The position numbers and the translations under genes are program-made. The notes below the pieces were generated by a model that saw only the letters and a list, made by a program, of their open reading frames with translations, was not told where the DNA came from and searched no databases. Below, one piece after another: positions 13,075 to 62,753 of a stretch of 64,000 bases of DNA. Every line of letters begins with the position of its first letter. Position 1 is the first letter of the stretch. The DNA is from Bacteroidota bacterium. Lineage in GTDB: Bacteria; Bacteroidota; Bacteroidia; Chitinophagales; Chitinophagaceae. Location: positions 62,001 to 126,000 of the forward strand of contig CANHGS010000007.1 in NCBI GenBank assembly GCA_947460595.1, given 5' to 3'.

Positions 13075-13076
13075 CC

Positions 13077-13391: not shown

Positions 13392-13403
13392 ACCAATTGC
13401 ATC

Positions 13404-32662: not shown

Positions 32663-32671
32663 AACAATAAC

Positions 32672-46105: not shown

Positions 46106-46118
46106 TTAACTGATTATA

Positions 46119-47107: not shown

Positions 47108-48214
47108 ATGCAGCCAAGATTATTCTTATTGCTACTATTGTTGCTGGGGTCAATCGTATCTATCGGTCAATATAGTAACAATACTGATCCGGTTGCCATT
47201 AAAACTAGGATGTTTAATGTTGCACTTTGGCAATTACAGCATTCAAATGGAAAACCATTGAATACCTGGACAAATGCTGCATTTTATACAGGGGTTTTTG
47301 CTACCTATCAGTCAACTAAAAATATAGAAATTTTAGACTCACTTTTTGCTATGGGAGAAAGAACAAAATGGCTTCCGGGAAGAAGATATGACCATGCTGA
47401 TGACTATGCTATTGGTCAATTATATCTGGATTTATTCCAAATAAAGCAAGATGATAAAATGCTTCAGCCAACCTATGATTCTTTAAAGAAAATGCAATTA
47501 ACACCAGGAAATGAAATTAAAAAACATGGGATTAATTGGTGGTGGTGCGATGCTTTATTTATGGCTCCTCCTACCATGGCCAAAATGGCAAAAGTAAAAC
47601 AAGATGAATCACTGTTGATTTTGAGCGATACCCTTTTTAGACAGGCTTATCAGTTATTGTATCATCAAGATGACCATTTATTTGCTAGAGATGCGGTGTA
47701 TTTATGGAGTAGTGAAGGAGAAGGAAGAAAAGAATCAAATGGTAAAAGAATATTTTGGTCTAGGGGAAACGGCTGGGTACTAGCCGGTTTGGCTAGGTAT
47801 TTAGATGCAATGCCCAAAAATTATGCGGGTAGGCAGTTTTATTTGAATTTATATCAATCCATCTGTTTAAGGATAATTGAATTACAACAACCCGATGGAC
47901 TATGGAGAACTAGCCTATTAGATCCAGAAGCCTATCTAGGAGGTGAAGCCTCAGGTACTGGATTTATTTGTTATGCGCTTGCATGGGGTGTCAATCAAAA
48001 AATAATTGATCGTAAAACTTTTCTTCCAATGATAAAGAAAGCTTGGGATGGCTTAAACTTAATGGTTACTCCTGAAAATAAGGTAGGGTGGGTGCAACCT
48101 ATTGGAGCAGATCCTAGGAAAAATTTTAATTCAGAAAGTTGGGAATCTTTTGGCACAGGTGCCTATTTGCTTGCTGCTTCTGAAATTTTAAAAATCAAAC
48201 AAATTGTAAAATGA
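47108..48214 (+). CDS. GH105 unsaturated rhamnogalacturonyl hydrolase (third copy)
   Basis: 368-residue secreted GH105 enzyme with signal peptide MQPRLFLLLLLLLGSIVSIG. It has the catalytic Asp148 in WWWCDALFMAPP, and FWSRGNGWVLAGLARYLD as the second hallmark. It acts on unsaturated uronic-acid ends of pectin fragments. Its stop overlaps the start of the DUF1080 gene (ATGA, 48211-48214), so both proteins are made from one message. It is closer in pattern to the copy at 3-1148 than to the one at 7198-8550. Confidence 0.87.
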   Translation: MQPRLFLLLLLLLGSIVSIGQYSNNTDPVAIKTRMFNVALWQLQHSNGKPLNTWTNAAFYTGVFATYQSTKNIEILDSLFAMGERTKWLPGRRYDHADDYAIGQLYLDLFQIKQDDKMLQPTYDSLKKMQLTPGNEIKKHGINWWWCDALFMAPPTMAKMAKVKQDESLLILSDTLFRQAYQLLYHQDDHLFARDAVYLWSSEGEGRKESNGKRIFWSRGNGWVLAGLARYLDAMPKNYAGRQFYLNLYQSICLRIIELQQPDGLWRTSLLDPEAYLGGEASGTGFICYALAWGVNQKIIDRKTFLPMIKKAWDGLNLMVTPENKVGWVQPIGADPRKNFNSESWESFGTGAYLLAASEILKIKQIVK

Positions 48215-49572
48215 GAAAAATGCTATTTAAGCAAGTTGTAATTGTTTTTGTTGCTTTTATGTTGACACAGCAAATTCAAGCTCAGTCTACCGGTTGGAAA
48301 AACTTATTTGATGGTAAAACCCTCAAAGGTTGGCACCAATTAAATGGAAAAGCCAAGTATGAAATTGTCAACGGAACTATAGTAGGGACAACTGTTCCGG
48401 GTGAACCAAACTCCTTTTTGGCAACTGATGAAACCTATGGTGATTTTATTTTGGAAGTAGAATTAAAAGTAGGAGAGATGAATTCTGGCATTCAAATCAG
48501 AAGTCTTTCTTTGCCTGAATACAACAATGGTCGCGTACATGGCTATCAAGTAGAAATTGATCCTTCTGCCCGAGCATGGTCTGGCGGTATTTATGACGAA
48601 GCTCGTAGGGGTTGGATGTACCAAACAGAAATGAACCCTGCCGCTAAAAAGGCATTTAACAAAACAGGATGGAACAAATATCGTGTTGAAGCTATTGGGC
48701 CTTTGTTCCGAACTTGGGTGAATGATGTTCCCGTTACTTGTATGTTGGATGACCTTACCTTAAAAGGGTTTATTGCTTTGCAGGTTCATGCCATTAAACA
48801 AGGGGAAGGTGGCCAACAAATCCAGTGGAAAAATATTCGTATTCAAACTGGCGCAGCTATGAAACCAAGACCCATGGATGCTAGTACACCGGTAGCTAAT
48901 TATTTAGTGAACAATTTGTCTGATCAAGAAAAAGCCCAAGGTTTCCAACTAATCTTTAATGGTAAAGATTTAACCGGATGGAGGTCTGCAGGGCAAATTA
49001 CTACTCCAATAAAAGGTTGGGAGGTTGAAAATGGCAACCTGCATGTTCAAGATAGTGCGCATTCCAACCACCCTGGAGATTTGGTTACGGTGCAACAATA
49101 CAAAGCCTTTGAATTAGTATTTGATTTTAAATTAACGCCTGGAGCCAATTCAGGGGTTAAATATTTTGTAAAGGAAACTCCAGGAAGCAGGGCTGGTCTA
49201 GGTTTGGAATACCAAGTATTGGATGATGCCTTGCATCCCGATGCTAAAATGGGCGTAGAAGGAAACAGAACTTTGGCTAGTTTATATGACCTCATTCCAT
49301 CTGTAAAAATGGAAGCCCGCTTTCAGAAAAAAATTGGTGAATGGAATCAAGGAAAAATCATTGTTTATCCAAATAACCATGTGGAACATTGGTTAAATGG
49401 TTTTAAAGTGGTGGAATATGAAAAAGGAGGTCCTATTTACAAGGTTTTGTTAGCGCATAGTAAGTATGCTAAGAGTAAGGATTTTGGCAATGTAAGTCAA
49501 TCACCCATTCTATTGCAAGAGCATGGAGATAACGTATATTACAGAAGCATTAAAATCAGGGAATTTAAATAA
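48211..49572 (+). CDS. Secreted protein with two DUF1080 (3-keto-disaccharide hydrolase) domains
   Basis: 453-residue exported protein with signal peptide ending LTQQIQAQS. It contains two copies of the DUF1080/3-keto-disaccharide hydrolase jelly roll, residues about 27-212 and 245-452. Each begins with a similar strand (GWKNLFDGKTLKGWHQL; FQLIFNGKDLTGWRS) and contains a GxQIR or GVKYF core (NSGIQIRSLSLPEYNNG; NSGVKYFVKETPG). Family members cleave glycosides previously oxidised at C3. The Tat-exported Gfo/Idh oxidoreductase downstream could supply that oxidation. Single-domain proteins are more common than the double form. Confidence 0.85.
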   Translation: MRKMLFKQVVIVFVAFMLTQQIQAQSTGWKNLFDGKTLKGWHQLNGKAKYEIVNGTIVGTTVPGEPNSFLATDETYGDFILEVELKVGEMNSGIQIRSLSLPEYNNGRVHGYQVEIDPSARAWSGGIYDEARRGWMYQTEMNPAAKKAFNKTGWNKYRVEAIGPLFRTWVNDVPVTCMLDDLTLKGFIALQVHAIKQGEGGQQIQWKNIRIQTGAAMKPRPMDASTPVANYLVNNLSDQEKAQGFQLIFNGKDLTGWRSAGQITTPIKGWEVENGNLHVQDSAHSNHPGDLVTVQQYKAFELVFDFKLTPGANSGVKYFVKETPGSRAGLGLEYQVLDDALHPDAKMGVEGNRTLASLYDLIPSVKMEARFQKKIGEWNQGKIIVYPNNHVEHWLNGFKVVEYEKGGPIYKVLLAHSKYAKSKDFGNVSQSPILLQEHGDNVYYRSIKIREFK

Positions 49573-49912
49573 ACCTGATTAGCAAGATTTTGGCAGTTTG
49601 GTATAAGTCGGTGGGTGAGAACCTGCTGACTTTATTTTTCAATTCCCTATTCCAATTGGCTTGAATAAGTATGTCAAAAGCTTATATGTGAAATTCAGAC
49701 GGATACTCCTTTTCTTATTAACAGTAACTAATGTAAGTCCAAAATATTCCATTGCCGGAATACCCAGACCGGATTTTGAAATAGGCAATTGGATGAACTT
49801 CATTTTGGAATTTACGATGTTCTTAAACCCCAATTTTAAACCTGGAATATCTCAAAAATTCGTACCTTATCCCTTCTCAAAATAATCAACAAACCAAAAT
49901 ACAAACACCGCC
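49573..49912 (+). other. Intergenic region without a supported gene
   Basis: A 340-base AT-rich gap between the DUF1080 gene and the Tat Gfo/Idh gene. Short open frames exist on both strands (for example 49661-49885 on the plus strand, TTG start), but neither resembles a protein. I see no terminator and no TAnnTTTG promoter element. It may hold the promoter of the oxidoreductase gene. Confidence 0.4.
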
Positions 49913-51238
49913 ATGAAAGAACAAAAACCTAAGTCAGTTTCCAGAAGAGACTTTATGGGTAATTCTGCTAAAGTTTTGGCTGGATTCATGATATTACCCA
50001 GACATGTCTTGGGTGGAACCAGCTTATCCGGAATCAAATACACCGCACCCAGCGATATCATTTCCTTGGGATTGATTGGTGCAGGAAAACAAGGGGGCAT
50101 TCTCTCTAATTATTTCTTGAAAACAGAACAAATTAGATTTACGGCTATCAGTGAAGTTTATCAAGCAAAAGCTAAAAAAACCTTGGATGGTATCAAGGCT
50201 AATTATGCTAAAAATACCCAACTTGGTGCTTATAATGAGATTCCTGTGTACAACGATTTTAGAGAATTGTTAGCACTCAAATCTGTGGACGCTGTTGTAA
50301 TTGCATTGCCAGACCATTGGCATGCTGCTGCTGCAGTTAGGGCCGCTCAAGCTGGTAAAGATATTTATTGTGAAAAACCTTTGGCCTTGACTGTGAAAGA
50401 AGGTAGGGCCATGGTCAATGCTACTAGGAAATATGATCGGGTTTTTCAAACAGGAAGTATGCAACGTTCTTGGAAAGAATTTAGACAGGCAGCTGAATTA
50501 ATTCGTAATGGATATATTGGTCAAATTAAAGAGATCAAAGTGAATGTTGGCCCACCACCAACGCCTTACAATCTTCCAGCAGAAGCTATTCCAGAAGGAT
50601 TGGATTGGACCAAATGGTTAGGACCCAATGCACCCGTAAACTTTAATTCAGAGCTAGCGCCACCCATTACCAAAGACGTTTATCCTAACTGGCGCAACTA
50701 CAAAGAATTTGGAGGTGGAATGGTTACTGATTGGGGTGCCCATATGTTTGATATTGTACAATGGGCCTTAGATATGGATTCCAGCGGTCCAGTAGAAGTA
50801 ATAGCACCTGATGGCAAAGAATTTCCTTTCTTGACTTATAAATATGATAATGGGATTGTCATGACCCACGAAAAATGGGCTTGGGGCAACGCTATTCATT
50901 TTATTGGATCAGAAGGGGAGATCAAAGTGGCTAGGGGTAAATTAGAAACCACCCCAGCTTCACTAAAAGACAAACTGATTGGAGAATCTGAAAAGCATGT
51001 CTACAAAAGTGAAGACCATTACAAAGACTTTTTAAATGCTATGCGCACCAGATCCAAACCTATTTGTGATGTAGAAACAGGACATCGTACGTCTAGTGTA
51101 TGCAATATTGGTAATATTGCATACCAGTTAAATAGAAAATTGGAATGGAATTCCAAGAAAGAACAGTTTAAAAATGACCCTGAAGCCAATGCGCTCTTGG
51201 GTAGGCCAATGTTGAATGAATGGGCCATTAAGTTGTAA
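49913..51238 (+). CDS. Tat-exported Gfo/Idh/MocA family oxidoreductase
   Basis: 441-residue NAD(P)-type dehydrogenase with an N-terminal twin-arginine signal (SVSRRDFMGNSAKVLAGFMI), so it is folded with its cofactor before export to the periplasm. The Rossmann motif is LGLIGAGKQGG, and the family active-site segment is CEKPLALTVKEGRAMVNA with the catalytic Lys. A Gfo/Idh C-terminal domain follows (GGGMVTDWGAHMFDIVQWAL). Proteins of this type oxidise glycosides at C3, which fits the double DUF1080 protein upstream. The substrate is unknown. A clear terminator follows. Confidence 0.86.
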   Translation: MKEQKPKSVSRRDFMGNSAKVLAGFMILPRHVLGGTSLSGIKYTAPSDIISLGLIGAGKQGGILSNYFLKTEQIRFTAISEVYQAKAKKTLDGIKANYAKNTQLGAYNEIPVYNDFRELLALKSVDAVVIALPDHWHAAAAVRAAQAGKDIYCEKPLALTVKEGRAMVNATRKYDRVFQTGSMQRSWKEFRQAAELIRNGYIGQIKEIKVNVGPPPTPYNLPAEAIPEGLDWTKWLGPNAPVNFNSELAPPITKDVYPNWRNYKEFGGGMVTDWGAHMFDIVQWALDMDSSGPVEVIAPDGKEFPFLTYKYDNGIVMTHEKWAWGNAIHFIGSEGEIKVARGKLETTPASLKDKLIGESEKHVYKSEDHYKDFLNAMRTRSKPICDVETGHRTSSVCNIGNIAYQLNRKLEWNSKKEQFKNDPEANALLGRPMLNEWAIKL

Positions 51239-51256
51239 CAAACCCATCTAAATAGG

Positions 51257-51284
51257 AAGACCACTCATTTGGGTGGTCTTTTTT
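51257..51284 (+). terminator. Rho-independent terminator after the Tat Gfo/Idh gene
   Basis: AAGACCACTC (51257-51266) pairs with GGGTGGTCTT (51271-51280), with one wobble pair and a 4-base loop, followed by TTTT. It separates the 3-keto-glycoside genes from the CoA-transferase operon. Confidence 0.88.
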
Positions 51285-51520
51285 ATTGGGTAAGCAGTAA
51301 AATATTCCATCATTATAGTCAAACCTTACATTTTACTCCTTGTCAGTTTCAATTACTTTCGAACAATATTAGTTTATTGCTATTACAACGAATTGCTGGC
51401 CGCCCTGAATAACATTCGCCCTAGATGTTTGTGGAGTACCCTCCCTACACTTTCCCGATTTGTTCAAAACAAGGTTTCCCTCTCGTTAGCATAGTGGTTT
51501 AATCACTTATCTGCTTTTGT

Positions 51521-51973
51521 ATGGAACATACCATGTACTACGAGGATTTTGAACTGAACGCTATTCGTTATACCAATGGGAGAACCATTACTGAAACTGA
51601 TATTGTGATTCACGCAGGTCAATCTGGTGATTTCTTTCCCCACCATATGGATGAAGAATGGTGTAAGACCCAGCCTTTTAAAAGAAGAATGGCACATGGG
51701 ACCTTGGTATTCACCGTTGCAGTAGGGTTAACAGCTGGTTCCATTAATCCCGTTTCCATGACTTATGGCTATGAAAAAATTAGGTTTACCAAACCAGTGT
51801 TTATAGGTGATACCATTCGCGTTAAAGTACAGATCAATCAATTGAAAGAGCATAAAAAACCAGGCTTTGGTTTGGTCTCAGAATTATTAGAAGTAACCAA
51901 CCAGCACCAAGAATTGGTGATGATTTGTGAGCACATATTACTGGTACAAAAAAAGCAAATAGCCAATGGCTAG
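51521..51973 (+). CDS. MaoC-like (R)-specific enoyl-CoA hydratase/dehydratase
   Basis: 150-residue hot-dog-fold protein of the MaoC dehydratase family, acting on acyl-CoA in the cytosol. The catalytic dyad is Asp37 and His42 in [11 protein letters not shown], the same spacing as Asp31/His36 of Pha[21 protein letters not shown] is the other conserved segment. It should hydrate or dehydrate a short hydroxyacyl-CoA. First gene of a tight operon with two CoA-transferases that could make its substrate. Overlaps the next gene by 8 bases. Confidence 0.87.
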
Positions 51974-53132
51974 TGTTACACTCAAAGGGATTACTTGGGG
52001 GCATAGTAGGGGATTAACGCCTTTATTGGCCATGTCTCAACGCTATTCGGAATTGCATCCCGAAGTAACTATTCAATGGGATATAAGAAGCCTACAAGCA
52101 TTTGCTGATTTTCCTATTGAAAAACTCACAGAATCTTATGATTTACTCATTATTGACCATCCATGGGTAGGATGTGCAGCAGCCACTAATTGTGTGTTGC
52201 CGCTGGATCAATACCTTGATGCAGCTTATCTAGAAAATCAATTAGAAAATTCTGTAGGAAATTCCCACTTGAGTTATCATTATCAGGGTCACCAGTGGGC
52301 ATTGGCCATTGATGCTGCAACACCTGCCGCTAGTTACCGCCCAGACTTATTTGCAAATGAAAATCAAACAGTTCCCAATCATTGGGATGCTTTATTGGAT
52401 TTGGCAAGAGCAGGTAAAGTAGCCATACCAGGCATTCCTATTGACTGTCTTATGAATTTTTATAGTTTTTGTATTATTCATGGCAAATACCCTTTTACAA
52501 ATCAATTATCCTTCATTGAAAATGAAATAGCTTTAAAAGCGTTGGAAACTATGAAGGATTTATATTCCTTGATAGATGCTCGTTTTTTTCAATGTAATCC
52601 CATTGCTGTGGCAGAATTAATGAGCAGTACCAATGACTATTGGTATTGTCCCTTTGCATACGGATATTCTAACTATGCAAGAGATGGTTATGCCAAATAC
52701 CCTCTTAGGTATACGGGAACTGTTAGTGTTCTGGGGCATCAATTGAGAACTACTATTGGTGGAACTGGCTTGTCTGTTTCTGCGCATAGTAAACATCCAG
52801 AACAGGCATTGTCATTTGCTCAAATGGCCGTTTCTGAAGTTTGGCAATCTAGTATCTATGTGCAGCATGGGGGGCAGCCTGGCCACTTATCCGCATGGAA
52901 GAATGACTTAGCAAATTCCCTCACCAATGATTATTTCAAACAGGTTCTGCCATTGATGGAAAGGGGATACACAAGACCAAGATACAATGGTTACTTATAT
53001 TTTCAAGATCATGCAGGGGCTCCTGTACAGGCCTATTTAATGGGTAAGATCAGTGCTTTGGATGCGTTAGAACAAATGAATGAATTATACCAAATCAGTT
53101 TAACAATGGACCACTCAATTGCACTAGTATGA
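51966..53132 (+). CDS. Solute-binding-protein-fold protein without signal peptide
   Basis: 388-residue protein of the ABC sugar-binding (COG1653, family 1) type. The first lobe starts directly with strand beta-1 ([20 protein letters not shown]) and [38 protein letters not shown] and [20 protein letters not shown] are typical inner-cleft segments, as is [16 protein letters not shown]. No signal peptide or lipobox is present, no ABC permease is nearby, and the start overlaps the MaoC stop, so it is made as a cytosolic protein. Its task is unknown: substrate sequestration, sensing, or an enzyme on this fold are all possible. Confidence 0.75.
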
Positions 53133-54274
53133 TGCAGCTTCCTTTAAAAGGTTTATTGGTATTGGAGTTTAGCCAATATCTCTCTGGTCCCTCTGCAGGA
53201 TTGAGGTTGGCAGACTTTGGCGCAAGGGTCATAAAAATTGAGCGTCCACAAACTGGTGATCCATGTAGAAAACTCTCTATCAAGAATCTCTGGGCTGATG
53301 AAAACAATTCCTTGTTGTTTCATACCATTAACAGAAACAAAGAAAGTTTTACGGCTAATTTGAAAGATCCCCAAGATTTGAAATTGGTTTTAAAACTAAT
53401 TGCCAAAGCAGATGTAATGACGCATAATTTTAGACCAGGGGTCATGGAAAAAACAGGGCTTGGTTATGCCGATATAATCAAGATCAATCCCAAACTGATA
53501 TATGCAGAAATCTCCGGATATGGCAAAAAAGGCCCTTGGAAAAATAAACCCGGGCAAGACCTGCTACTGCAAGCCATGACCGGATTGGCATATACTACAG
53601 GAAATGCCAAAGACGCACCCATGCCATTTGGTTTATCCATTGCGGACTATATGGCGGGAGGGCAATTGGTACAAGGAATTCTTGCTGGATTAATTCGTAG
53701 ACAAAAAACTGGCAAAGGAGCTTTGATAGAAATTAGCTTGATGGAATCCTTGTTAGATTTTCAATTTGAATTATTGACTACGTATTATAGCAGTAGAAAA
53801 GGGCTGAATAGAAGTCAAGTAAGTAATGGAAATCCACTTTTAGGTGCGCCTTATGGTATTTATCAAACTGCTACTGGATATATTGCCATAGCCATGATGG
53901 ATATACAGGTCTTAGCAACTGTTATTGGCTCAAAGCCATTGGAACAATTTTCTCAGTCAGATACATTTATAAAAAGAGATGAGATTAAACGGCTTTTAGG
54001 AATCCATTTGTTGCAAGCTTCTTCTACCCATTGGTTAGAAATGTTACAACATCATGGGTTATGGGCCATGGAAGTAAATGATTGGCAAGAAATGATACAA
54101 AAAGAGGCTTATCAAATTTTACAAATGGAACAAACCTTGCAAGTAAATGGCAAGTCTTTTACCACAACAAGATGCCCTATTAGAATTGATGGAAAAAAAA
54201 TATTTTCTTCCAAACCCGCGCCAGAACTAGGAGAACACCAACAACAAATTCAAAGAGATTTGATAAACCAATAA
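53129..54274 (+). CDS. CaiB/BaiF family III CoA-transferase (first paralogue)
   Basis: 381-residue family III CoA-transferase, which moves CoA between carboxylic acids through an aspartyl anhydride. The N-terminal LVLEFSQYLSGPSAGLRLAD, the segment NPKLIYAEISGYGKKGPW and the likely catalytic Asp144 in KPGQDLLLQAMTGL are intact, as is SLMESLLDFQFELLTTYY. The gene overlaps the preceding stop (ATGA). The next gene is a paralogue that also keeps its Asp, so the two may form a heteromer or act on different acids. Substrates are not readable from sequence. Confidence 0.88.
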   Translation: MMQLPLKGLLVLEFSQYLSGPSAGLRLADFGARVIKIERPQTGDPCRKLSIKNLWADENNSLLFHTINRNKESFTANLKDPQDLKLVLKLIAKADVMTHNFRPGVMEKTGLGYADIIKINPKLIYAEISGYGKKGPWKNKPGQDLLLQAMTGLAYTTGNAKDAPMPFGLSIADYMAGGQLVQGILAGLIRRQKTGKGALIEISLMESLLDFQFELLTTYYSSRKGLNRSQVSNGNPLLGAPYGIYQTATGYIAIAMMDIQVLATVIGSKPLEQFSQSDTFIKRDEIKRLLGIHLLQASSTHWLEMLQHHGLWAMEVNDWQEMIQKEAYQILQMEQTLQVNGKSFTTTRCPIRIDGKKIFSSKPAPELGEHQQQIQRDLINQ

Positions 54275-54275
54275 G

Positions 54276-55457
54276 ATGGTCAAATTATTAGAAGATATTA
54301 TTATTGTTGACCTGAGTCAGTTTTTATCTGGCCCATCTGCTGCCTTGCGCTTGGCCGATATGGGAGCTCAGGTAATTAAAATTGAGCGGCCAGACACAGG
54401 CGATATCTGTAGACACCTTTATGTATCAGATGTAATTATTGAAGGAGAGTCTAGTATTTTTCATGCCATCAACAGAAATAAACAGAGTTATGCAGCTGAT
54501 TTAAAAAAGGAATCAGATTTACAAAAAGTAAAACAGATTTTACAAAGAGCAGACGTATTACTCCATAATTTCAGGCCAGGTGTTATGGACAGATTGGGTT
54601 TGGACTATGAAACGGTCAAAACCTTGAATCCACAAATTGTTTATGCAGAAATTACTGGATTTGGATCAGAAGGTCCCTGGAAAGACTTGCCTGGTCAGGA
54701 CTTGTTGTTGCAAGCTGCTTCTGGATTAACCTGGTTAAGTAATAGTCAGTCTGAAAACCCCACACCCATGGGTGTAGCCGTGGTAGATATTTTAGCTGGC
54801 ACTCATATTGCGCAAGGAATACTGGCTTGTTTATACAGACGAGCGATTACAGGAGAAGGGGGATTGGTACAAGTGAGTATGTTAGAAAGTATACTAGATT
54901 TTCAATTTGAAGTGCTCACCTGTTTTTATAATGATGGTGGAGCGCTCCCAATTCGCAGTGCCGTAAATGGTGGGCATGCTTATATTGCAGCCCCTTATGG
55001 TATTTATGCTACTCAAGACGGTCATTTGGCATTGGCCATGGGCGATATTTTAATCCTTGGAACCTTATTAACTTGTCCTGAATTGTTGATTTTTGAAGAG
55101 AGTGCCCAGTGGTTTAGTAGAAGGGATGAGATCAAACAAATTTTAGCCAATCATTTGGTCAGTAAAACAACTACTGAATGGTTAGATATTTTAGAGCCAG
55201 CAGATATTTGGTGTGCCAAGGTCTTGGACTATCAATTGCTGATGCAAGAAACAGGCTATCAAGAATTGAATATGGAATTAGTTGTGAAAACATCCAAAGG
55301 AGTTGCAGTAACCACTACCCGTTGTCCAATAAAAGTAGACGGAGAAATTTTGGGTTCTGAAAAAGGAGCACCTTTGTTGGGAGAACATAATACTGATATT
55401 GACCAACAATTCAATATTATTGATACCAAGGAATTACAATCGATAGCCAGTTTTTAA
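54276..55457 (+). CDS. CaiB/BaiF family III CoA-transferase (second paralogue)
   Basis: 393-residue paralogue of the preceding gene, starting one base after its stop. It keeps IIVDLSQFLSGPSAALRLAD, NPQIVYAEITGFGSEGPW and the catalytic Asp142 in LPGQDLLLQAASGL, so both copies should be active, unlike BbsEF-type pairs in which one subunit has lost it. The C-terminal VTTTRCPIKVDGEILGSEKG resembles the matching part of the first copy. It probably arose by tandem duplication. Confidence 0.88.
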   Translation: MVKLLEDIIIVDLSQFLSGPSAALRLADMGAQVIKIERPDTGDICRHLYVSDVIIEGESSIFHAINRNKQSYAADLKKESDLQKVKQILQRADVLLHNFRPGVMDRLGLDYETVKTLNPQIVYAEITGFGSEGPWKDLPGQDLLLQAASGLTWLSNSQSENPTPMGVAVVDILAGTHIAQGILACLYRRAITGEGGLVQVSMLESILDFQFEVLTCFYNDGGALPIRSAVNGGHAYIAAPYGIYATQDGHLALAMGDILILGTLLTCPELLIFEESAQWFSRRDEIKQILANHLVSKTTTEWLDILEPADIWCAKVLDYQLLMQETGYQELNMELVVKTSKGVAVTTTRCPIKVDGEILGSEKGAPLLGEHNTDIDQQFNIIDTKELQSIASF

Positions 55458-55466
55458 GCCATTGCC

Positions 55467-56330
55467 ATGCCATTTGAATTGATAGATACACATGTTCATA
55501 TATGGGATTTAGAGAAAGTAGATTATCCTTGGTTAAAGGGTAATCCGTCTATTTTAAATCGTACCTATCAGATCAATGAATTATCACCTCAATTGACTAT
55601 TGCAGGAGTGTCAAAAGGCATTTTGGTGCAAGCATCCAATAATGCGGAAGACACAGTTGCCATGTTACAAGTGGCTCAACAAGAAGATTGGATTGAGGGA
55701 GTTGTGGGTTGGTTGCCTCTAGTGGATCCAATTGCTTCTGGTCAAGCTTTAACACAATATCAGCAGCATCCTTATTTTAAAGGGGTAAGACATTTAATTC
55801 ATGATGAACCAGATACGGCCTGGCTATTACAAGCAACGGTGGTGGAGAGCTTAACCAACTTGGCCAATCAAGGTTTGTCTTATGACTTAGTGGGAATTAC
55901 CAACGCACATATTGAAACTGCTATGGCGGTAGCCGAAAAAATTCCACACTTGAAAATGGTATTTGATCATTTGAATCAACCTCCTATTCAGCAAGCTGAA
56001 AAATTTGGTGTATGGGGTGCACTGATGTCTAGTGCGGCTAGCAATCCCCATTTTTATGCAAAAATTTCTGGACTAGGAACTACTTGTGGAACCGTAGATT
56101 TTACAAAAGATACTATCAAACCCTATTTGGAATTCATCATTCAGCAATTTGGTGTTGACCGATGTTTTTGTGGCGGAGACTGGCCCGTATCGCTATTAGC
56201 AAAAGACTATACCAGTACATGGCATATTTATCAAACAGCCATCCTTGAATTAGTAGGAGAACAAGATGCTCAAAAAATCTTTGCTACTAATGCCAAAGCA
56301 TTCTATCAATTGAACCCCACCAAACAATAA
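55467..56330 (+). CDS. COG3618 amidohydrolase (sugar lactonase-like)
   Basis: 287-residue TIM-barrel metal-dependent hydrolase of the COG3618 group, which includes L-fuconolactonase, L-rhamnono-lactonase and 2-pyrone-dicarboxylate lactonase. The metal motif is LIDTHVHIWDLEKVDYPWL at the N-terminus. Further segments are KMVFDHLNQPP, YAKISGLGT and CFCGGDWPVSLLAKDY with the late Asp. It probably opens a sugar-acid lactone made by the Gfo/Idh enzyme in the same operon (inference). Its stop overlaps the transporter start (TAATG). Confidence 0.86.
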   Translation: MPFELIDTHVHIWDLEKVDYPWLKGNPSILNRTYQINELSPQLTIAGVSKGILVQASNNAEDTVAMLQVAQQEDWIEGVVGWLPLVDPIASGQALTQYQQHPYFKGVRHLIHDEPDTAWLLQATVVESLTNLANQGLSYDLVGITNAHIETAMAVAEKIPHLKMVFDHLNQPPIQQAEKFGVWGALMSSAASNPHFYAKISGLGTTCGTVDFTKDTIKPYLEFIIQQFGVDRCFCGGDWPVSLLAKDYTSTWHIYQTAILELVGEQDAQKIFATNAKAFYQLNPTKQ

Positions 56331-57373
56331 TGCAATTAGCCAACGGAATTTTATTTCATGCAGTAGGTGCTTCCAGCGCGTCACTTTGTTATACGCCACA
56401 AAAACAAGTTAAAGGATGGTCATGGCAAACTTATTGGTTGGCTCAAGCGGTAGTTTGCTGGATACTGATGCCCTTATTGGTAGCATGGTTAACCATTCCA
56501 AATCTTGGTCAGGTATTGCAATTGGCTCCTTCAACTGCCATCTGGCATTCTTTTTTATTGGGTGTTTGTTATGGCATTGGTGGCACCGCATTTGGAATGG
56601 CTATCAAACATGTTGGTATTTCGCTTACTTATGCAGTAGCAGTAGGTATTTCTTGTATTCTTGGAACATTGGTGCCTCCTGTATTGAGTGGTACCATGCA
56701 AGTGTTATTAGAAAGTAAAGGCATTGCGCTGATTTTGACAGGGGTATTTTTAGGGGCTGTTGGTATTGCTGTTTGTGGCATTGCTGGGAGAAAAAAAGAA
56801 TTGGATTTAGCCAAGGATCAAAGTTTATCAGGATTTTCTTTGGCAAAAGGTTTGCCGCTTTGTTTTTTAGCTGGAGTGCTTTCTGCTTTTTATGGGTTTT
56901 CTTTAGATGCAGGTAAACCCATTGCTGACATTGCAGAACAATATGGCGCTGCTGATTATAGACAAAATGTCATTTATCTATTTTCCAATTCGGGAGCATT
57001 TTTGAGTACGGCAATTTACTGTATCTACCTGCATGTCAAAGAAGGAAGTTTTGGTGAATACGGTCATCAATTTAAGGGAGGAAGCATGGTGTTGTCTAAG
57101 AATTTTTTATTGGCCATTATCACGGGTGTGCTTTGGTATGGTCAGTTTTTCTTTTATGGACTAGGTCATGTGCGTTTGGGTGAATACCAATTTTCAAGTT
57201 GGGCTATTCACATGATTATGTTGGTTTTGTTTAGCAGTATTGCTGGATTAATCTTAAAGGAATGGGCTGGCTGTACCCATAAAACAAAAGGAATACTTGC
57301 CATAGCATTGGGGATTCTAATAGCCGCCGTATTAATCTTAACTTACGGAAATTATTTGGGTGGAGTCAATTAA
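56330..57373 (+). CDS. RhaT-like sugar/proton symporter (second paralogue)
   Basis: 347-residue membrane protein with about ten hydrophobic segments, clearly homologous to RhaT at 9856 (GILFHAVGASSASLCYTPQK, then QVKGWSWQTYWL; later LWYGQFFFYGLGHVRLGEYQ). The conserved KGWSW motif and the loop APSTAIWHSFLLGVCYGIGG are present, but many residues in the helices differ. In this operon it probably imports a different substrate, such as another deoxysugar or a pectin-derived sugar acid (inference). Confidence 0.85.
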   Translation: MQLANGILFHAVGASSASLCYTPQKQVKGWSWQTYWLAQAVVCWILMPLLVAWLTIPNLGQVLQLAPSTAIWHSFLLGVCYGIGGTAFGMAIKHVGISLTYAVAVGISCILGTLVPPVLSGTMQVLLESKGIALILTGVFLGAVGIAVCGIAGRKKELDLAKDQSLSGFSLAKGLPLCFLAGVLSAFYGFSLDAGKPIADIAEQYGAADYRQNVIYLFSNSGAFLSTAIYCIYLHVKEGSFGEYGHQFKGGSMVLSKNFLLAIITGVLWYGQFFFYGLGHVRLGEYQFSSWAIHMIMLVLFSSIAGLILKEWAGCTHKTKGILAIALGILIAAVLILTYGNYLGGVN

Positions 57374-57386
57374 ACCAGGTTCATTC

Positions 57387-58439
57387 ATGCTTATTCCAAA
57401 CAGAAATAGTACTATTTGCATTATTGGCGCAGGAGGTATTGTAAACGATGCCCATTTACCCGCTTATGCCATAGCTGGATTTAAAGTAGCAGGAATATTT
57501 GATAGAGATGTTGAAAAAGCTAAGAACCTGGCTGACAAGTTTGCAATACCTACAGCTTATGAAAGTTTAGATCAAATGGTGGCTGCACATCCAAATGCAA
57601 TTTTTGATATGGCGTTACCTGCATCAGAAATCATACCCATCTTAGAACAGTTGCCCCATGGTGCTGCGGTATTGATACAGAAACCTTTGGGTACCAATTA
57701 CCAAGAAGCATTAGCTATTAAAGCATGTACGGAGAGGAAATCTATGAAAGCTGGGGTGAATTTTCAATTGCGATATGCACCGTTTATTCAAGCGGCAAAA
57801 GAGATGGTTACAAGGGGCGATATTGGGGAATTATATGATATTGAAGTGCACGTTAATGTTTTTACACCTTGGCATTTGTGGACCTTTTTATATGGTAAGC
57901 CAAGGCTAGAAATATTGTATCATAGTATTCACTACTTAGATCTGGTTCGTTCTTTTTTGGGAGACCCAGTAGGTATCTATGCCAAAACGGTGAAGCATCC
58001 ATCCTTGCAAAATCTGGCTTCGGTAAGAACCAATATGATTATGGATTATGGAGAAACCGTTAGGGCCAATATTCTTACCAATCATTGTCATGAATTTGGG
58101 TACCATAACCAACAATCCTATATCAAGTTTGAAGGTACCGAGGGGGCCATTAAAATTAATATGGGCGTTTTAATAGATTACCCAAGAGGAGTGCCTGACA
58201 AATTTGAGTTTGTCATCATGGAGCAAGGAAAACAACCTGAATGGCAGGAATTGACCATTGAAGGTGGTTGGTTTCCACATGCTTTTATTGGTACCATGCA
58301 ACAAGTGATGCTTTGTGCAGAAGGAAAGATTGCAACACCAGGCAATAGTGTGGATGATGCTTTAAAAACCATGGCCTGTGTAGAAGCAGCTTATTTGAGT
58401 AGTGAAAAAGGAAGCATTCCTATTTCAACCATCCAATAG
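57387..58439 (+). CDS. Cytosolic Gfo/Idh/MocA family dehydrogenase
   Basis: 350-residue NAD(P)-dependent dehydrogenase without an export signal. The Rossmann motif is ICIIGAGGIVNDAHLPAY, and the catalytic lysine segment is LIQKPLGTNYQEALAIKA. A Gfo/Idh C-terminal domain with ILYHSIHYLDLVRSFLGDP follows. It could oxidise an imported sugar to a lactone for the amidohydrolase upstream. The start was put at ATG 57387; a GTG at 57360, inside the transporter gene, would add nine residues before the Rossmann strand. Last gene of the CoA-transferase operon. Confidence 0.86.
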   Translation: MLIPNRNSTICIIGAGGIVNDAHLPAYAIAGFKVAGIFDRDVEKAKNLADKFAIPTAYESLDQMVAAHPNAIFDMALPASEIIPILEQLPHGAAVLIQKPLGTNYQEALAIKACTERKSMKAGVNFQLRYAPFIQAAKEMVTRGDIGELYDIEVHVNVFTPWHLWTFLYGKPRLEILYHSIHYLDLVRSFLGDPVGIYAKTVKHPSLQNLASVRTNMIMDYGETVRANILTNHCHEFGYHNQQSYIKFEGTEGAIKINMGVLIDYPRGVPDKFEFVIMEQGKQPEWQELTIEGGWFPHAFIGTMQQVMLCAEGKIATPGNSVDDALKTMACVEAAYLSSEKGSIPISTIQ

Positions 58440-58478
58440 ATTTTTCAATTCCATGAATGCAAATAAGCACCAGCAGTT

Positions 58479-61175
58479 ATGAAACTATCTCGTATTTTTC
58501 AAATGGTCCTGTTAGGAATGCTTTGTCTTCCATTGACAGTGTTGGCGCAAATCCCCAAAAAACAAATTAGGATTCTACACCAAGATCAATCTCCTAGAAC
58601 CTTATTTGCCATTGAACAACTCCAAGAAACTTTAGAAAATAATGGCTGGCAGGTTTTAGTTCCTAGTCAACAAACCGAAAAAAAAACTAGGAGCATTGAA
58701 CTTGTATTAGATGGAACAAAGGGAATTAAAAAAGAAGGATTTCAGATTAATGGGACTAATGCAAATGGCTTTCAGATAACAGCAGCAGACGCTTCAGGAT
58801 TATTATATGGTTGTTTAGAAATGGCATCCCTAGTTGAAAAAGATGCAGGGCTTGAACAGTCAATTAATCTCTCAGATGCTCCAGAAATGGTACTTCGTGG
58901 CACTTGCATTGGTATGCAAAAAACAGATTATTTGCCAGGTAGAGAAGTCTATGAATATCCGTATACGCCCGAAACCTTTCCTTGGTTCTATGATAAAAAA
59001 CTTTGGTTACAATACTTAGACAGTATGGTGGCAAATAGATTGAATTCACTCTATCTCTGGAATGGACATCCCTTTGCATCACTAGTACGATTAAAAGAAT
59101 ATCCCTATGCGGTTGAAGTGGATTCAGCCACTTTTCAAAAAAATGAAACCATTTACAAATTCATTACTGAAGAAGCGGATAAGCGCGGTATTTGGGTCAT
59201 CCAGATGTTCTATAATATTATTGTTTCAAAACCATTTGCTGAATACCATCATATTAAAACCCAGGATCGGAATAGACCCATCATTCCACTGATTGCAGAC
59301 TATACCAGAAAATCCATTGCAGCTTTTGTAGAAAAATATCCCAATGTTGGTTTAATGGTAGCTTTGGGAGAGGCCATGGAAGGGGTGGGTAATGATGATA
59401 TAGAATGGTTTACCAAAACCATTATTCCCGGTGTAAAAGATGGATTGCGCGCGCTGGGAAAAACCGAAGAGCCACCCATTGTTCTGCGCGCGCATGATAC
59501 GGATGCGCCAACAGTAATCAAAGCCGCCAAACCCTTGTATAGTAATCTTTACACGGAAGCCAAATTCAATGGAGAAGCACTCACTACTTATGAACCAAGA
59601 GGTAAATGGGCTGAATTACATAGAACCCTTAGTAGGTCTGGTTCTGTGCAAATTGAGAACGTGCATATACTGGCTAATCTAGAACCTTTCCGTTATGGCT
59701 CCGCCAATTTTATTCAAAAATCAGTGAAGTCAATGCATAGTATAATGGAAGCAAATGGATTGCATTTATATCCACAGGCTTCTTATTGGGATTGGCCTTA
59801 TACAGCAGATAAAACCAGCCCAAGATTATTGCAGGTAGAAAGAGACTGGCTTTGGTATAAGACCTGGAGTCGTTATGCTTGGAAGGCTGGTAGGGATTCT
59901 GTGGAAGAAGCCAAATATTGGGCAGGTAGTTTGGCTAGCAAGTTTGGAACAGATCTAAAGTCTGGCGCTGCCATCATGGAAGCTTATAATCAGTCAGGTG
60001 AGATTGCCCCCAAACTCCTAAGACGTTTTGGTATTACGGATGGGAATAGACAGACACTTAGTCTTGGGATGCTCATGACCCAACTGATCAATCCATATAG
60101 ATATAGTTTATTGGATTTATTGTATGATGCAGAAAGCCCTGTTGGTGAAAAATTGATTGAATACGCTGAACGCGATTGGAAAAAACAAGCGCATGTGGGT
60201 GAAACGCCTGTAATGATCATTAACCAAGTAGAATCACATGCCAAAGCCGCAGTAGCCGCAATTAAAAAAGCAGCACCCCATATTCAAAAAGAGCAAGCTG
60301 AATTTAAAAGAATTAGCAATGACATGATTTGCTATCAGTTATTGGCCAATCACTATGCTCAAAAAGCAAGGGCTGCCATTTGGATATTGCGTTATAAATA
60401 TTCTAAATCTGTAGTTGATTTAGATAGTGCTTATCCGCATTTGGAAAAAAGCCTTAATTTCTATCGCCAACTGGCAAAAATCACTGCTAATAATTATTTG
60501 TATGCCAATAGTATGCAAACCAAGCAAAGGAAAATCCCTATTAGGGGTGTAGACGGAACATTCAAAACCTGGACCGAAGTCTTGGTGCCATTTGAACAAG
60601 AATTCCAACATTTTAAACATGCATTAGATTCTCTGAAACATTCACCAGCTAATCATCTCAAAACAAGAATCTCTTTGATAAATGCTGCTGTTACAACTAC
60701 TGCTAATTGGGTTCACTTAAAAGAAAATGCCCTTCCATTTTCTGATAGTGTTTGGCAGGTACAGGATCTTGCAGATGAGTTAAGAGGATTAAAATCCATA
60801 CAAGTTTCATTTCAACAACAGCAAATGCAGGGAACCAGATTGCGTTTTAGCAATGCGGTACCCGTAAAAGTCTTAGTAGGGTTCTTTAATAAAAAATCAC
60901 CTGAATATTTAAAAGCGCCTGAATTGGAAACAGATGCTTCTGCCAATGATCTGGGTCAGGCAGAAACCAAGATTGCCAATGCTATTCAGTTAAAAGGGCT
61001 ACCATCAGTGAATGTACATAGCTATGATTTTAAGGCTGGTAATAATGAGTTGATACTTCCCAAAGGAGCTTGTATGATCCTTGGCTTTATTAGCGGAAAT
61101 CAACCAATTAAACCCTATGATGCGGGGATTACGGAAAAGGGTAGAAAATTAGAAATTGATTGGTTATTTGAATAA
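58479..61175 (+). CDS. Secreted glycoside hydrolase with GH67/GH20-like architecture
   Basis: 898-residue exported protein with signal peptide MKLSRIFQMVLLGMLCLPLT. Residues about 30-135 look like the alpha/beta GH67-N/GH20b domain (TLFAIEQLQETLENNGWQVL, FQITAADASGLLYGCLEMAS). The next part is a TIM barrel (MVANRLNSLYLWNGHPFASL, EEADKRGIWVIQMFYNIIVS, VGLMVALGEAMEGVGNDDIE). Glu298 and Glu301 in ALGEAMEG are candidate acids. The helical C-terminal half resembles the alpha-glucuronidase tail. A uronidase acting on pectin or glucuronoxylan is plausible, but I cannot assign it firmly to a CAZy family. The GH28 gene starts directly after its stop. Confidence 0.7.
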   Translation: MKLSRIFQMVLLGMLCLPLTVLAQIPKKQIRILHQDQSPRTLFAIEQLQETLENNGWQVLVPSQQTEKKTRSIELVLDGTKGIKKEGFQINGTNANGFQITAADASGLLYGCLEMASLVEKDAGLEQSINLSDAPEMVLRGTCIGMQKTDYLPGREVYEYPYTPETFPWFYDKKLWLQYLDSMVANRLNSLYLWNGHPFASLVRLKEYPYAVEVDSATFQKNETIYKFITEEADKRGIWVIQMFYNIIVSKPFAEYHHIKTQDRNRPIIPLIADYTRKSIAAFVEKYPNVGLMVALGEAMEGVGNDDIEWFTKTIIPGVKDGLRALGKTEEPPIVLRAHDTDAPTVIKAAKPLYSNLYTEAKFNGEALTTYEPRGKWAELHRTLSRSGSVQIENVHILANLEPFRYGSANFIQKSVKSMHSIMEANGLHLYPQASYWDWPYTADKTSPRLLQVERDWLWYKTWSRYAWKAGRDSVEEAKYWAGSLASKFGTDLKSGAAIMEAYNQSGEIAPKLLRRFGITDGNRQTLSLGMLMTQLINPYRYSLLDLLYDAESPVGEKLIEYAERDWKKQAHVGETPVMIINQVESHAKAAVAAIKKAAPHIQKEQAEFKRISNDMICYQLLANHYAQKARAAIWILRYKYSKSVVDLDSAYPHLEKSLNFYRQLAKITANNYLYANSMQTKQRKIPIRGVDGTFKTWTEVLVPFEQEFQHFKHALDSLKHSPANHLKTRISLINAAVTTTANWVHLKENALPFSDSVWQVQDLADELRGLKSIQVSFQQQQMQGTRLRFSNAVPVKVLVGFFNKKSPEYLKAPELETDASANDLGQAETKIANAIQLKGLPSVNVHSYDFKAGNNELILPKGACMILGFISGNQPIKPYDAGITEKGRKLEIDWLFE

Positions 61176-62753
61176 ATGAAATGTATGAACATGAGATTGA
61201 CCTATCTATTAACAACTTGCTTAGTCTTGGTTACAAATTTTGTAACAGCACAAAGCTTTTATAATGTGATTAGTTATGGTGCCAAGAATGATAGTTCTAT
61301 TATAGCCACCAAAGCTATTGCCAAAGCCATTGCAGCCGCATCAAAAGCCGGAGGTGGAACCATCTATTTTCCTGCGGGCAAATACCTGACTGGTCCCATT
61401 CATTTAAAAAGCAATATCACCATATTCATTGATGCGGGCGCGGAACTTCATTTTAGTGACAATTTTGACAACTATTTGCCCATGGTTCCTTCTAGATATG
61501 AAGGGGTTGATGTTACCAGTTTCTCACCCTTATTTTATGCATATGGGGCAGAGAATATTAGTATTACTGGAAGAGGTATCATTGACGGACACGGAAAAAA
61601 ATGGTGGGACTTTGTTGAGGGTTATAAAAAAGACCAACCAAGGTCTAAATGGCAATTCCAATTTGATTCACTAAATAAAAATATTTTGTTGCCTGATGAT
61701 CCCGCACAAATGAAAAGAGGTTTTTTAAGACCACCCTTTATTCAAACCATGTATTGTAAGAATGTGTTGATTGAAGGAATCAGTATAAGAAACTCTCCAT
61801 TTTGGACAGTGAATCCTGAATTCTGCGAGAATGTTACGGTACAAGCAGTGACTATTAATAATCCGCATTCTCCCAATACAGATGGCATTAATCCAGAGTC
61901 TTGTAAATACGTGCATATTTCTAATTGCCATATTTCTGTTGGGGATGATTGTATTACCATCAAATCTGGAAAAGATATACCAGGCCGCACCAAACAAATG
62001 CCTGCAGAAGATTATACTATTACCAATTGTACCATGTTGTCTGGACATGGAGGCGTTGTAATAGGATCTGAGATGAGTGGAGACGTGAGAAGAATTGCCA
62101 TTTCTAATTGCATTTTTGATGGTACCGATAAAGGCATCAGAATAAAAACAACAAGAGGAAGAGGTGGTGTAGTTGAAGATATTCGGGTAAGCAATATTGT
62201 GATGAATAATATCAAAGACATTGCATTTGTCATGGACATGCAGTATAGCAAAACCAAGGAAGAACCATTATCAGAAAGAACGCCCAGATTTAGAAATATA
62301 CATATCAGTAATGTTTCGGGTAATGCCAAACAGGCCGCCTACATCAATGGGCTGGAAGAAATGCCCGTAAGCCAGATAAGTTTTCACGATATTAACCTTG
62401 TAACAGAAGAAGGATTCGTGCTAAAAAATGCCAAGGATATATCGTTTCATCAGGTAGAACTTGTTTCTAAAAATAGCCCACCCATCAGTGCTTTTGCTGT
62501 GACCAATTTGGAATTAGACGGCATTAAAGCTAACCTAAACAACCAGCATTTACCCGTACTCCGATTAGAAAAAACAACTGATGTGTTTATTCATGGATCC
62601 AATATTAGGGGAACAGGAAATTTTCTAGATTTAAAAGGAGCAGATAACAAAGACATGCTCATTAAAGGAAATTATCTAAGTAAAACAGTTATAGCCATTA
62701 AAACGGATACGGAAATTCTCAACAATATTATCTTGGAGGAATCAAACCACTAA
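61176..62753 (+). CDS. GH28 polygalacturonase-type hydrolase
   Basis: 525-residue secreted right-handed beta-helix hydrolase of family GH28. All four family motifs are present: NTDG with Asp236, GDDC with Asp257 and Asp258, GHG with His291, and RIK from Arg322. The N-terminus FYNVISYGAKNDSSIIATKA is typical of the family. It cleaves galacturonic-acid linkages of homogalacturonan or the galacturonate-rhamnose linkage of rhamnogalacturonan; endo/exo action cannot be decided. Signal peptide at residues 6-26. ATG at 61176 touches the previous stop; ATG at 61191 (MRLTYLL) is also possible. Confidence 0.92.
   Translation: MKCMNMRLTYLLTTCLVLVTNFVTAQSFYNVISYGAKNDSSIIATKAIAKAIAAASKAGGGTIYFPAGKYLTGPIHLKSNITIFIDAGAELHFSDNFDNYLPMVPSRYEGVDVTSFSPLFYAYGAENISITGRGIIDGHGKKWWDFVEGYKKDQPRSKWQFQFDSLNKNILLPDDPAQMKRGFLRPPFIQTMYCKNVLIEGISIRNSPFWTVNPEFCENVTVQAVTINNPHSPNTDGINPESCKYVHISNCHISVGDDCITIKSGKDIPGRTKQMPAEDYTITNCTMLSGHGGVVIGSEMSGDVRRIAISNCIFDGTDKGIRIKTTRGRGGVVEDIRVSNIVMNNIKDIAFVMDMQYSKTKEEPLSERTPRFRNIHISNVSGNAKQAAYINGLEEMPVSQISFHDINLVTEEGFVLKNAKDISFHQVELVSKNSPPISAFAVTNLELDGIKANLNNQHLPVLRLEKTTDVFIHGSNIRGTGNFLDLKGADNKDMLIKGNYLSKTVIAIKTDTEILNNIILEESNH

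Follow-up and report, generated by a model that had tools for sequence, protein, structure and literature searches.

A conserved gene module for a proposed coenzyme A-dependent sugar-acid route with a predicted cytosolic solute-binding-protein-fold partner in Bacteroidota

Gene run and its rhamnogalacturonan II setting

The 64,000-nucleotide (nt) stretch analysed here (the window) covers positions 62001-126000 of contig C7 of a Bacteroidota genome (G000:C7; L-labels denote genome stretches and G-labels the genomes compared) and carries a run of genes for a putative coenzyme A (CoA)-dependent sugar-acid module with a solute-binding-protein (SBP)-fold protein. Seven open reading frames (ORFs) occupy 51521-58439 on the plus strand, and our ORF check placed all of them at the coordinates at which they had first been noted. 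The run opens with a MaoC-type hydratase/dehydratase gene (51521..51973; PF01575, 77.9 bits against a cut-off of 27) and continues with genes for a cytosolic SBP-fold protein, which has a sugar-binding fold of the ATP-binding cassette (ABC) type and no signal peptide (51966..53132; PF01547, 39.1 bits), two CaiB/BaiF family III CoA-transferases, CaiB1 (53129..54274; PF02515, 320.8 bits) and CaiB2 (54276..55457; PF02515, 310.9 bits), an amidohydrolase proposed to be a sugar lactonase (55467..56330; Amidohydro_2, PF04909, 104.1 bits), a RhaT-like sugar/H+ symporter that is a paralogue of the other RhaT in the window (56330..57373; PF06379, 195.2 bits), and a Gfo/Idh/MocA oxidoreductase (Gfo) proposed to be a sugar 1-dehydrogenase (57360..58439; GFO_IDH_MocA, PF01408, 50.1 bits). 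The families named in the first-pass annotation of this DNA agree with the Pfam assignments of all seven genes.

The MaoC and SBP genes overlap by 8 nt and the SBP and CaiB1 genes by 4 nt, CaiB1 and CaiB2 are separated by 1 nt, CaiB2 and the amidohydrolase gene by 9 nt, and the last two junctions are again overlaps (amidohydrolase/RhaT, 1 nt; RhaT/Gfo, 14 nt). The run continues past 58439 on the same strand: after a gap of 39 nt follows the gene for an exported alpha-D-galacturonidase (58479..61175; NF049878, 1431.3 bits, cut-off 1300), and after a gap of 0 nt that for an exported protein of the GH28 pectinase family (61176..62753; PF00295, 163.3 bits). The tight packing therefore supports the seven-gene operon described in the first-pass annotation; its end at 58439, however, was wrong, because the galacturonidase and GH28 genes belong to the run. 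We regard the gene unit as firm, and the spacing suggests a shared transcript. A sigma-70 promoter scan was uninformative (42 found against 47.2 expected), and the motif TAnnTTTG was not found in 51239-51520. The MaoC gene is separated by 282 nt from the gene upstream, which encodes another Gfo/Idh protein.

A GH95 frame (62763..63998, plus strand) begins 9 nt after the GH28 gene; it is open and extends past the window end (PF22124, 546.9 bits on L134). Downstream of GH95 the contig encodes a GH78-type rhamnosidase, a GH137-like protein, GH2, DUF3826, SusC and SusD (L134). The 374-amino-acid (aa) GH137-like protein matched positions 3-362 of the 1400 of NF049877, a beta-d-glucuronidase/beta-L-arabinofuranosidase model, with 526.1 bits; the match covers the N-terminal part of the model, which is presumably the GH137 part, and the whole-protein cut-off of 1800 was not reached. 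We take the NF049878 galacturonidase to be a GH138 enzyme. GH138, GH137 and the GH families co-located with them are enzymes of rhamnogalacturonan II (RG-II), which is among the most complex plant polysaccharides. Since the galacturonidase, GH28, GH95, GH78, GH137-like, GH2 and SusCD genes all lie downstream, the module heads an RG-II utilisation locus. The pectin setting proposed in the first-pass annotation was thus borne out and is specifically that of RG-II, with the galacturonidase and GH28 genes in the run itself and RG-II-type genes and SusCD after it.

The RG-II link was also observed in a sample of 296 Bacteroidota genomes. Sixteen of these carried a strong SBP match (21 matches were obtained initially, and five weak partial ones, with E values of 1e-4 to 9e-4, were counted as absent), and 14 carried a galacturonidase over the cut-off. 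Both genes were present in 11 genomes, the SBP gene only in 5, the galacturonidase gene only in 3 and neither in 277 (p=5e-14); that is, the galacturonidase accompanied the SBP in 11/16 genomes against 3/280 of the others, with the limit that the 11 genomes represent five genera and are not independent. The two genes were located on the same contig in 11/11 genomes, 6.6-87 kb apart. The galacturonidase genomes lacking the SBP gene (3/14) were G166, G206 and G238, while G107, G154, G182, G214 and G286 had the SBP gene and no galacturonidase over the cut-off; the locus of G154 (L056) carries a GH29 fucosidase. Given these five genomes, the RG-II setting holds for the lineages that carry both genes but does not extend to every occurrence of the module.

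Conservation of the module and properties of its proteins

A scan of a species-genome collection yielded 25 loci, and together with the G-genomes and plasmids 56 stretches were compared by best blastp match at E 1e-10. Some of these are cut by contig ends, and the set is partly redundant (L001 and L051 are the same contig; L122, L127 and L130 are near-identical plasmids). A CaiB gene was located on the same strand within 100 nt of the SBP gene in 50/56 stretches, with an overlap of 1-8 nt in 39; it was further off in L021, L025 and L049, and none was close by in L024, L063 and L126. The first-start ORFs of L046 and L123 overlap by 37 and 798 nt, respectively, which is an artefact of start choice, and they were counted as adjacent. 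A MaoC or crotonase gene lay within 10 kb of the SBP gene in 53/56 stretches (the exceptions were L048, L063 and L119) and a Gfo gene in 45/56. A lactonase-type amidohydrolase was found in 36/56, a RhaT- or FucP-type carrier in 35/56 and the galacturonidase in 22/56 (20 of the 25 species-genome loci). The full set as in the window, counted as SBP, CaiB within 100 nt, MaoC, amidohydrolase, RhaT and Gfo, lay within 10 kb in 19 of the 27 stretches L001-L023 and L051-L054. The core of SBP, CaiB and hydratase, usually with Gfo, recurs in both Bacteroidota and Alphaproteobacteria, where its neighbours are often genes for oxidative deoxysugar use. MaoC and the crotonase (CaiD family) alternate as the partner of CaiB: L024, L025, L055, L059, L124, L126 and L128 have a crotonase and no MaoC match, and L049 and L056 have both. 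Over the 296 genomes, the SBP gene was also associated with the 2,4-diketo-3-deoxy-acid hydrolase (FAH), with both in 13 genomes, the SBP only in 3, FAH only in 37 and neither in 243 (p=8e-9; 13/16 against 37/280). L080, from the SBP-free genome G206, has a fucose/GH141/GH28 setting with Gfo and FucP and no SBP, CaiB or MaoC gene in the stretch, and is perhaps a natural loss.

The surroundings of the module differ among lineages. In L057, L058, L061 and L064 it adjoins genes for L-fucose dehydrogenase, lactonase, FucP and GH141, and the GH141 protein of L061 (L061:6-2438) has a C-terminal L-rhamnose mutarotase domain (PF05336). FAH lies in the same stretch as the module in L052, L058, L061, L064 and L065, and next to it in the last four; in L052, a rhamnose mutarotase (PF05336), a short-chain dehydrogenase/reductase (SDR) and FAH flank it. 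The order in Ensifer, Roseibium and Labrenzia is MaoC-CaiB-SBP, amidohydrolase, IclR, sugar ABC importer and MR/MLE, followed by L-rhamnose mutarotase, Gfo, MaoC, SDR, L-fuconate dehydratase (FucD) and FAH, the last two being reversed in Ensifer (FAH, then FucD). The stretches from Shinella and from a record labelled Roseateles (UNVERIFIED_ORG) lack annotations for the first MaoC, the amidohydrolase and FAH. A second type, on Sinorhizobium medicae pSymA and in Pseudosulfitobacter, comprises Gfo, a sugar-phosphate-isomerase-like protein, an aldose-1-epimerase family protein, SDR, CaiB, SBP and crotonase, to which the Pseudosulfitobacter locus adds an FAH-family protein; no usual dehydratase is annotated at these two loci. 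L124 encodes a transporter, Gfo, SDR, CaiB, SBP, crotonase and an FAH-family protein, with no dehydratase of the usual families annotated. Genes for the uptake and oxidation of a sugar are thus repeatedly grouped with those for a CoA-transferase and a hydratase across two phyla. The crotonase sister system (L128:6670-13921, L124:4706-13033) is carried by rhizobial and marine plasmids, and no paper on it was found in the open-access literature searched.

By its sequence the SBP-fold protein is cytosolic, and it is the most telling part of the module. An in-frame stop two codons upstream of its ATG means that no longer N-terminus is possible, and its maximal 12-residue hydropathy is 0.70; the corresponding values of exported proteins nearby are 2.42 (galacturonidase), 2.21 (GH28) and 3.07 (GH88). 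In an AlphaFold2 model (pLDDT 90.1), the first residues already make the first strand of the fold, and 21 aligned SBP sequences from two phyla (29-65% identical to that of the window) all start at or near this strand. The alignment has 40 invariant columns, many of them polar (W11, H13, R15, D64, H65, Y104, D116, Y234, Y237, Q304, R337 and R339). The whole chain fits MalE3 and SmoF (VIA Z 37.7, 2.8 A, 367 and 366 residues), and because the Foldseek and VIA matches are mainly ABC sugar-binding proteins and maltose-binding-protein fusions, they give no hint of an enzyme. No ABC permease or ATPase is encoded among the genes in 51521-62753; the annotations of relatives describe extracellular proteins or binding proteins of ABC systems. 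In our reading, the SBP-fold protein works with CaiB in the cytosol by binding the sugar acid; it may also be catalytic itself. A second SBP-fold gene follows the second CaiB gene in L046, L047, L056, L057, L058, L060, L061, L062, L064 and L065, as if there were one SBP per CaiB, and the starts inspected in some of these loci had no hydrophobic leader.

Both CoA-transferases cover PF02515 completely (1-366 of 366; cut-off 23.3). D173 of CaiB1 is invariant in 19/19 aligned sequences and is a putative counterpart of the catalytic Asp of formyl-CoA transferase. None of the NCBIfam CoA-transferase equivalogs for succinate-glutarate, oxalate, mesaconate or carnitine was reached (best 205.4 against 750), and the PDB matches of CaiB2 were led by transferases (formyl-CoA transferase, 178.6 bits), with no racemase above 90.7 bits. 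A tree was built from 90 CaiB sequences, in which the CaiB1 of the window is represented by its 95%-identical relative in L001. A single clade with support of 100/99 comprised the first genes of 38 Bacteroidota loci; the 38 second genes grouped apart from these, on a weaker branch of their own (91/50). Both groups split into 12 and 26 as mirror images, so the pair looks, from the sequences, like one old duplication kept in order; such retention of an ordered pair suggests that CaiB1 and CaiB2 may form a heteromer. The pair of L123 (Croceibacterium) fell outside both groups, and 12 loci, mostly alphaproteobacterial, have a single CaiB gene.

D37 of MaoC is invariant in 15/15 aligned relatives and, by analogy with (R)-specific hydratases, may be the catalytic Asp; the closest solved chain is 4ffu (profile E 2.9e-77). 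The amidohydrolase, presumably of the COG3618 type, scored 157 bits against a cut-off of 400 for the L-fucono-1,5-lactonase equivalog of NCBIfam, and the symporter 303.7 against 468 for the L-rhamnose RhaT equivalog, a cut-off that the other RhaT of the window (9856-10932) exceeds (525.7). K108-P109, H191 and D194 of Gfo are invariant in 17/17 aligned sequences. Its closest solved chain, 5uhw, is a distant match (52.7 bits); the 5uhw series is presumably D-apiose dehydrogenase, and the match is too distant to decide the substrate.

Proposed chemistry and alternative readings

The genome holds further deoxysugar loci. A phosphorylative L-rhamnose operon occupies 9856-16062 of the window (RhaT, 525.7 bits over 468, RhaEW, RhaI and an FGGY kinase); as a side observation, in 9856-18172 this operon is followed by two genes matching lactate-oxidation LutA/LutB-like models. 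An L-fucose locus on contig C2 (L066) encodes FucP, SDR, GH29, FAH, lactonase, fucose dehydrogenase and a Zn-dependent alcohol dehydrogenase (Zn-ADH), and UxaA-type dehydratases are encoded at C7:1648 (confirmed by Pfam) and C1:409555. Among 19 genomes, the E. coli-type RhaA (PF06134) was found in 0/19, the RhaI type in 15/19 and FucI (PF02952) in 5/19. L-rhamnose or L-fucose as the sole substrate was set aside, since the genome has separate genes for each and neither is therefore the obvious substrate. With the UxaA-type dehydratases also taken into account, the most probable role of the module is in the use of a third sugar or in a side branch. We favour rare sugars of RG-II as candidate substrates, for example aceric acid, 2-O-methyl sugars, L-galactose or apiose. 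No enolase-, UxaA- or IlvD-type aldonate dehydratase is encoded among the nine genes of the run.

We tentatively favour, at a little below an even chance, a reading in which CoA cycling of the CaiB/CaiD style dehydrates a sugar acid that Gfo and the lactonase produce from a sugar released from RG-II. This sugar, a deoxy or another unusual one, would enter via the RhaT-like symporter, Gfo would oxidise it at C1 to a lactone, and the amidohydrolase would open the lactone to the sugar acid. The CaiB pair, with the cytosolic SBP-fold protein as the partner recognising the sugar acid, would then load the acid with CoA recovered from the product. MaoC could dehydrate the aldonyl-CoA by loss of the C2-H and C3-OH, giving an enol and hence a 2-keto-3-deoxyacyl-CoA, whose CoA would pass to the next aldonate and free the 2-keto-3-deoxy acid. 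The latter may be split by an SDR and FAH-hydrolase trunk encoded elsewhere in the genome. Such cycling would serve a sugar acid not handled by ordinary aldonate dehydratases. Each reaction, the substrate and the part given to the SBP-fold protein are read from protein families; the sequence of steps suggested in the first-pass annotation (import, oxidation to a lactone, ring opening, attachment of CoA, then MaoC) is plausible.

Several observations weigh against this scheme. The setting in sister clades is L-fucose-like and not that of RG-II, the SDR/FAH pair is on another contig and not in the run, no CoA ligase to prime the cycle is encoded among the genes of the run, and MaoC proteins are known for 3-hydroxyacyl-CoA substrates lacking a 2-OH. 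In Ensifer, Roseibium, Labrenzia, Shinella and the 'Roseateles' record, the CoA genes have an annotated L-fuconate dehydratase and another enzyme of the enolase type as neighbours; CoA is therefore not needed for fuconate dehydration there. L024, with its crotonase-type locus, also has a UxuA-type gene. Furthermore, the module was not associated with a missing dehydratase. For this comparison, local homologues of MR/MLE, UxaA and IlvD seeds (the latter two confirmed by Pfam) were counted at FAH loci above 300 bits from 50 genomes; no genome of the 296 reached the cut-off of 500 for NF053535, and the gap at 300 bits (300.7, then 247.6) was used. The single FAH common to L052 and L070 of G214 entered the count once, among the loci with a dehydratase; L077 (G286) was excluded, its FAH being below 300 bits; L057 has no FAH in the stretch; and L093 and L108 were kept although blastp did not recover the FAH frame. 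FAH loci lacking a local dehydratase amounted to 9/16 in module genomes (7 with, 9 without) and 18/37 elsewhere (19 with, 18 without; p=0.77). Inspection of unmatched neighbours in four further stretches revealed another Gfo/Idh protein in L099 and L109 and a response regulator in L107; a UxuA-type gene in L112 changed the other genomes to 20 with and 17 without (9/16 against 17/37, p=0.56). MR/MLE counts per genome were uninformative, as the family model matched 14/14 control genomes too.

The simple form of the idea, that the module replaces the usual dehydratase, was rejected on the basis of this negative test and of the L-fuconate dehydratase kept beside the module in several Alphaproteobacteria. 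The first-pass statement that known routes use an enolase-superfamily dehydratase proved too narrow, since UxaA and IlvD types are also found at such loci. Separately, ten L-fucose-type loci (L066, at G000:C2:137500-157400, L067, L057, L058, L061, L064, L065, L080, L089 and L100) encode a Zn-ADH at least 52% identical to that of L064. None of these ten stretches (0/10) has an MR/MLE, UxaA or IlvD homologue, and 7/10 are from SBP-bearing genomes. Speculatively, hydroxypyruvate and lactate could arise there from two oxidation steps together with cleavage by FAH, with no dehydratase.

The FucD genes beside the alphaproteobacterial modules would be accounted for by stereochemical correction, in which CaiB and MaoC dehydrate and rehydrate, or racemise, an acyl-CoA and so turn an unsuitable 6-deoxyaldonate into the isomer for a FucD- or UxaA-type dehydratase. 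This would also account for the two MaoC genes in L050 with L116, L052, L122, L127 and L130, and family III includes the alpha-methylacyl-CoA racemases that appear among the PDB matches of CaiB2. However, these racemases score below the transferases, most Bacteroidota stretches have a single MaoC gene, and L124 has no annotated ordinary dehydratase to act next; we consider this reading decidedly unlikely. Slightly more doubtful still is a non-orthologous replacement of L-fuconate or L-rhamnonate dehydratase, by which the module would be the fucose or rhamnose route of its lineage. It draws on the Flavobacteriia-type stretches L058, L061, L064 and L065, where L-fucose dehydrogenase, lactonase, FAH and FucP accompany the module (NF052481, 350 bits over 300, tested on L064; FucP, 365 over 280, tested on L058), where an SDR is also present in L064 and L065, and where no MR/MLE, UxaA- or IlvD-type gene was found in the four stretches. 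It conflicts with the phosphorylative L-rhamnose operon, separate L-fucose locus and UxaA-type dehydratases of the present genome, with the lack of association between the module and a missing dehydratase, and with the coexistence of FucD in Alphaproteobacteria.

Unlikely, although to a lesser degree, is that the substrate is an RG-II sugar barred from the ordinary dehydratase route, namely aceric acid, a 2-O-methyl sugar or apiose. Aceric acid carries its carboxyl group on C3, and dehydration would give a beta-keto acid that loses CO2, whereas a 2-O-methyl sugar would give an enol ether that loses methanol. The genome co-occurrence and the downstream RG-II-type genes agree with this, a RhaT-like carrier would suit a deoxy sugar, and the solved chain closest to Gfo belongs to the series presumed to be D-apiose dehydrogenase; against it, that match is distant, and marine and rhizobial bacteria have sister systems beside fucose genes, a setting in which one would not expect aceric acid. 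The occurrence of SBP, CaiB and crotonase near TRAP (tripartite ATP-independent periplasmic) transporters and without this type of Gfo (L049, L126), and of a D-lactate dehydrogenase nearby in L123, would fit CoA genes that handle a side product or short acid such as lactate, with the SBP-fold protein as a non-catalytic sensor or sponge. Given the close coupling of the SBP gene to CaiB and a hydratase in most stretches and the many invariant polar SBP residues, we regard this as very improbable. Beyond the favoured CoA-cycling reading, the SBP fold may have become detached from its ABC transporter as an obligate subunit or co-catalyst of the CoA-transferase, in a general CoA-thioester route for sugar acids of Bacteroidota and Alphaproteobacteria that would act on an RG-II rare sugar in RG-II eaters; we consider this wider proposal possible, if somewhat unlikely.

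Other features of the window lie upstream of the run. A GH88 family gene (47108..48214, plus strand; PF07470, 230.2 bits), which we count as part of the setting, is followed by genes for a 3-keto-disaccharide hydrolase (two PF06439 stretches) and the Gfo/Idh protein mentioned above (48211..51238, plus strand). The latter has a twin-arginine-like start (SRRDF) and a glycoside 3-dehydrogenase-like match of 153 bits, below the cut-off of 750; this pair perhaps performs a periplasmic 3-keto-glycoside step beside the pectin genes. Further upstream, 37526-47021 contains a 2859-aa frame and then a PorP/SprF type IX secretion protein (PF11751), and 29993-33844 is one run of XdhC, MobA-like, MoaA-like and MoeA-like molybdenum cofactor genes.

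Comparison with known systems

The genes described here constitute a conserved, putatively CoA-dependent sugar-acid module with a cytosolic SBP partner that is undescribed in the open-access literature searched. No paper on such a cluster was found there, in keeping with the first-pass remark that no pathway could be named for it. To our knowledge, the fate of the rare sugars released from RG-II is largely unknown, and the module offers a concrete, testable gene set for the fate of one of them. If the favoured reading is true, there would be a route through CoA esters for the dehydration of sugar acids, in addition to that by the enolase, UxaA and IlvD enzymes, and a role would be found for a widespread cytosolic 'ABC binding protein' that is often automatically annotated as extracellular. 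Many genomes, including Sinorhizobium megaplasmids, hold such genes under misleading names.

The RG-II loci of Bacteroides thetaiotaomicron contain GH138, GH137-type, GH95, GH78, GH2 and SusCD genes, as does the present locus; we know of no sugar-acid CoA module in them. A sugar dehydrogenase and a lactonase of the COG3618 type are common to the module and the non-phosphorylative L-rhamnose and L-fucose routes (LRA/Fuc type), and several relatives also have the SDR and the 2,4-diketo-3-deoxy-acid hydrolase. Those routes do not involve CoA and depend on a dehydratase of the enolase, UxaA or IlvD type, whereas here a CoA-transferase/hydratase set is added. Conserved clusters place the genes only half-way in a known pathway: they tie the module to oxidative L-fucose-type loci, but the CoA genes that they add are not explained by it.

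A sugar acid has been proposed to be processed as a CoA thioester in deoxyribonate oxidation by Klebsiella michiganensis, where a CoA-transferase gene is in the cluster (PMC6365646). A CoA synthetase, a 3-hydroxyacyl-CoA dehydrogenase and a thiolase are proposed for that system, and MaoC, SBP, Gfo and amidohydrolase are not named in the accessible part of the report (PMC6365646). In its make-up the module resembles carnitine dehydration in E. coli and Proteus, where the family III CoA-transferase CaiB and the enoyl-CoA hydratase CaiD act together while CoA cycles between product and substrate (PMC2131755). Like CaiD, the hydratases of some sister systems belong to the crotonase family. In contrast, the module in the window has two CaiB paralogues, MaoC in place of the crotonase, a cytosolic SBP-fold protein, genes for sugar uptake, oxidation and lactone opening, and an RG-II setting. 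Finally, the SBP-fold protein has its fold in common with the ABC-importer binders MalE3 and SmoF but differs from them in having no signal peptide, no permease or ATPase in its run, and a gene that overlaps that of a CoA-transferase.

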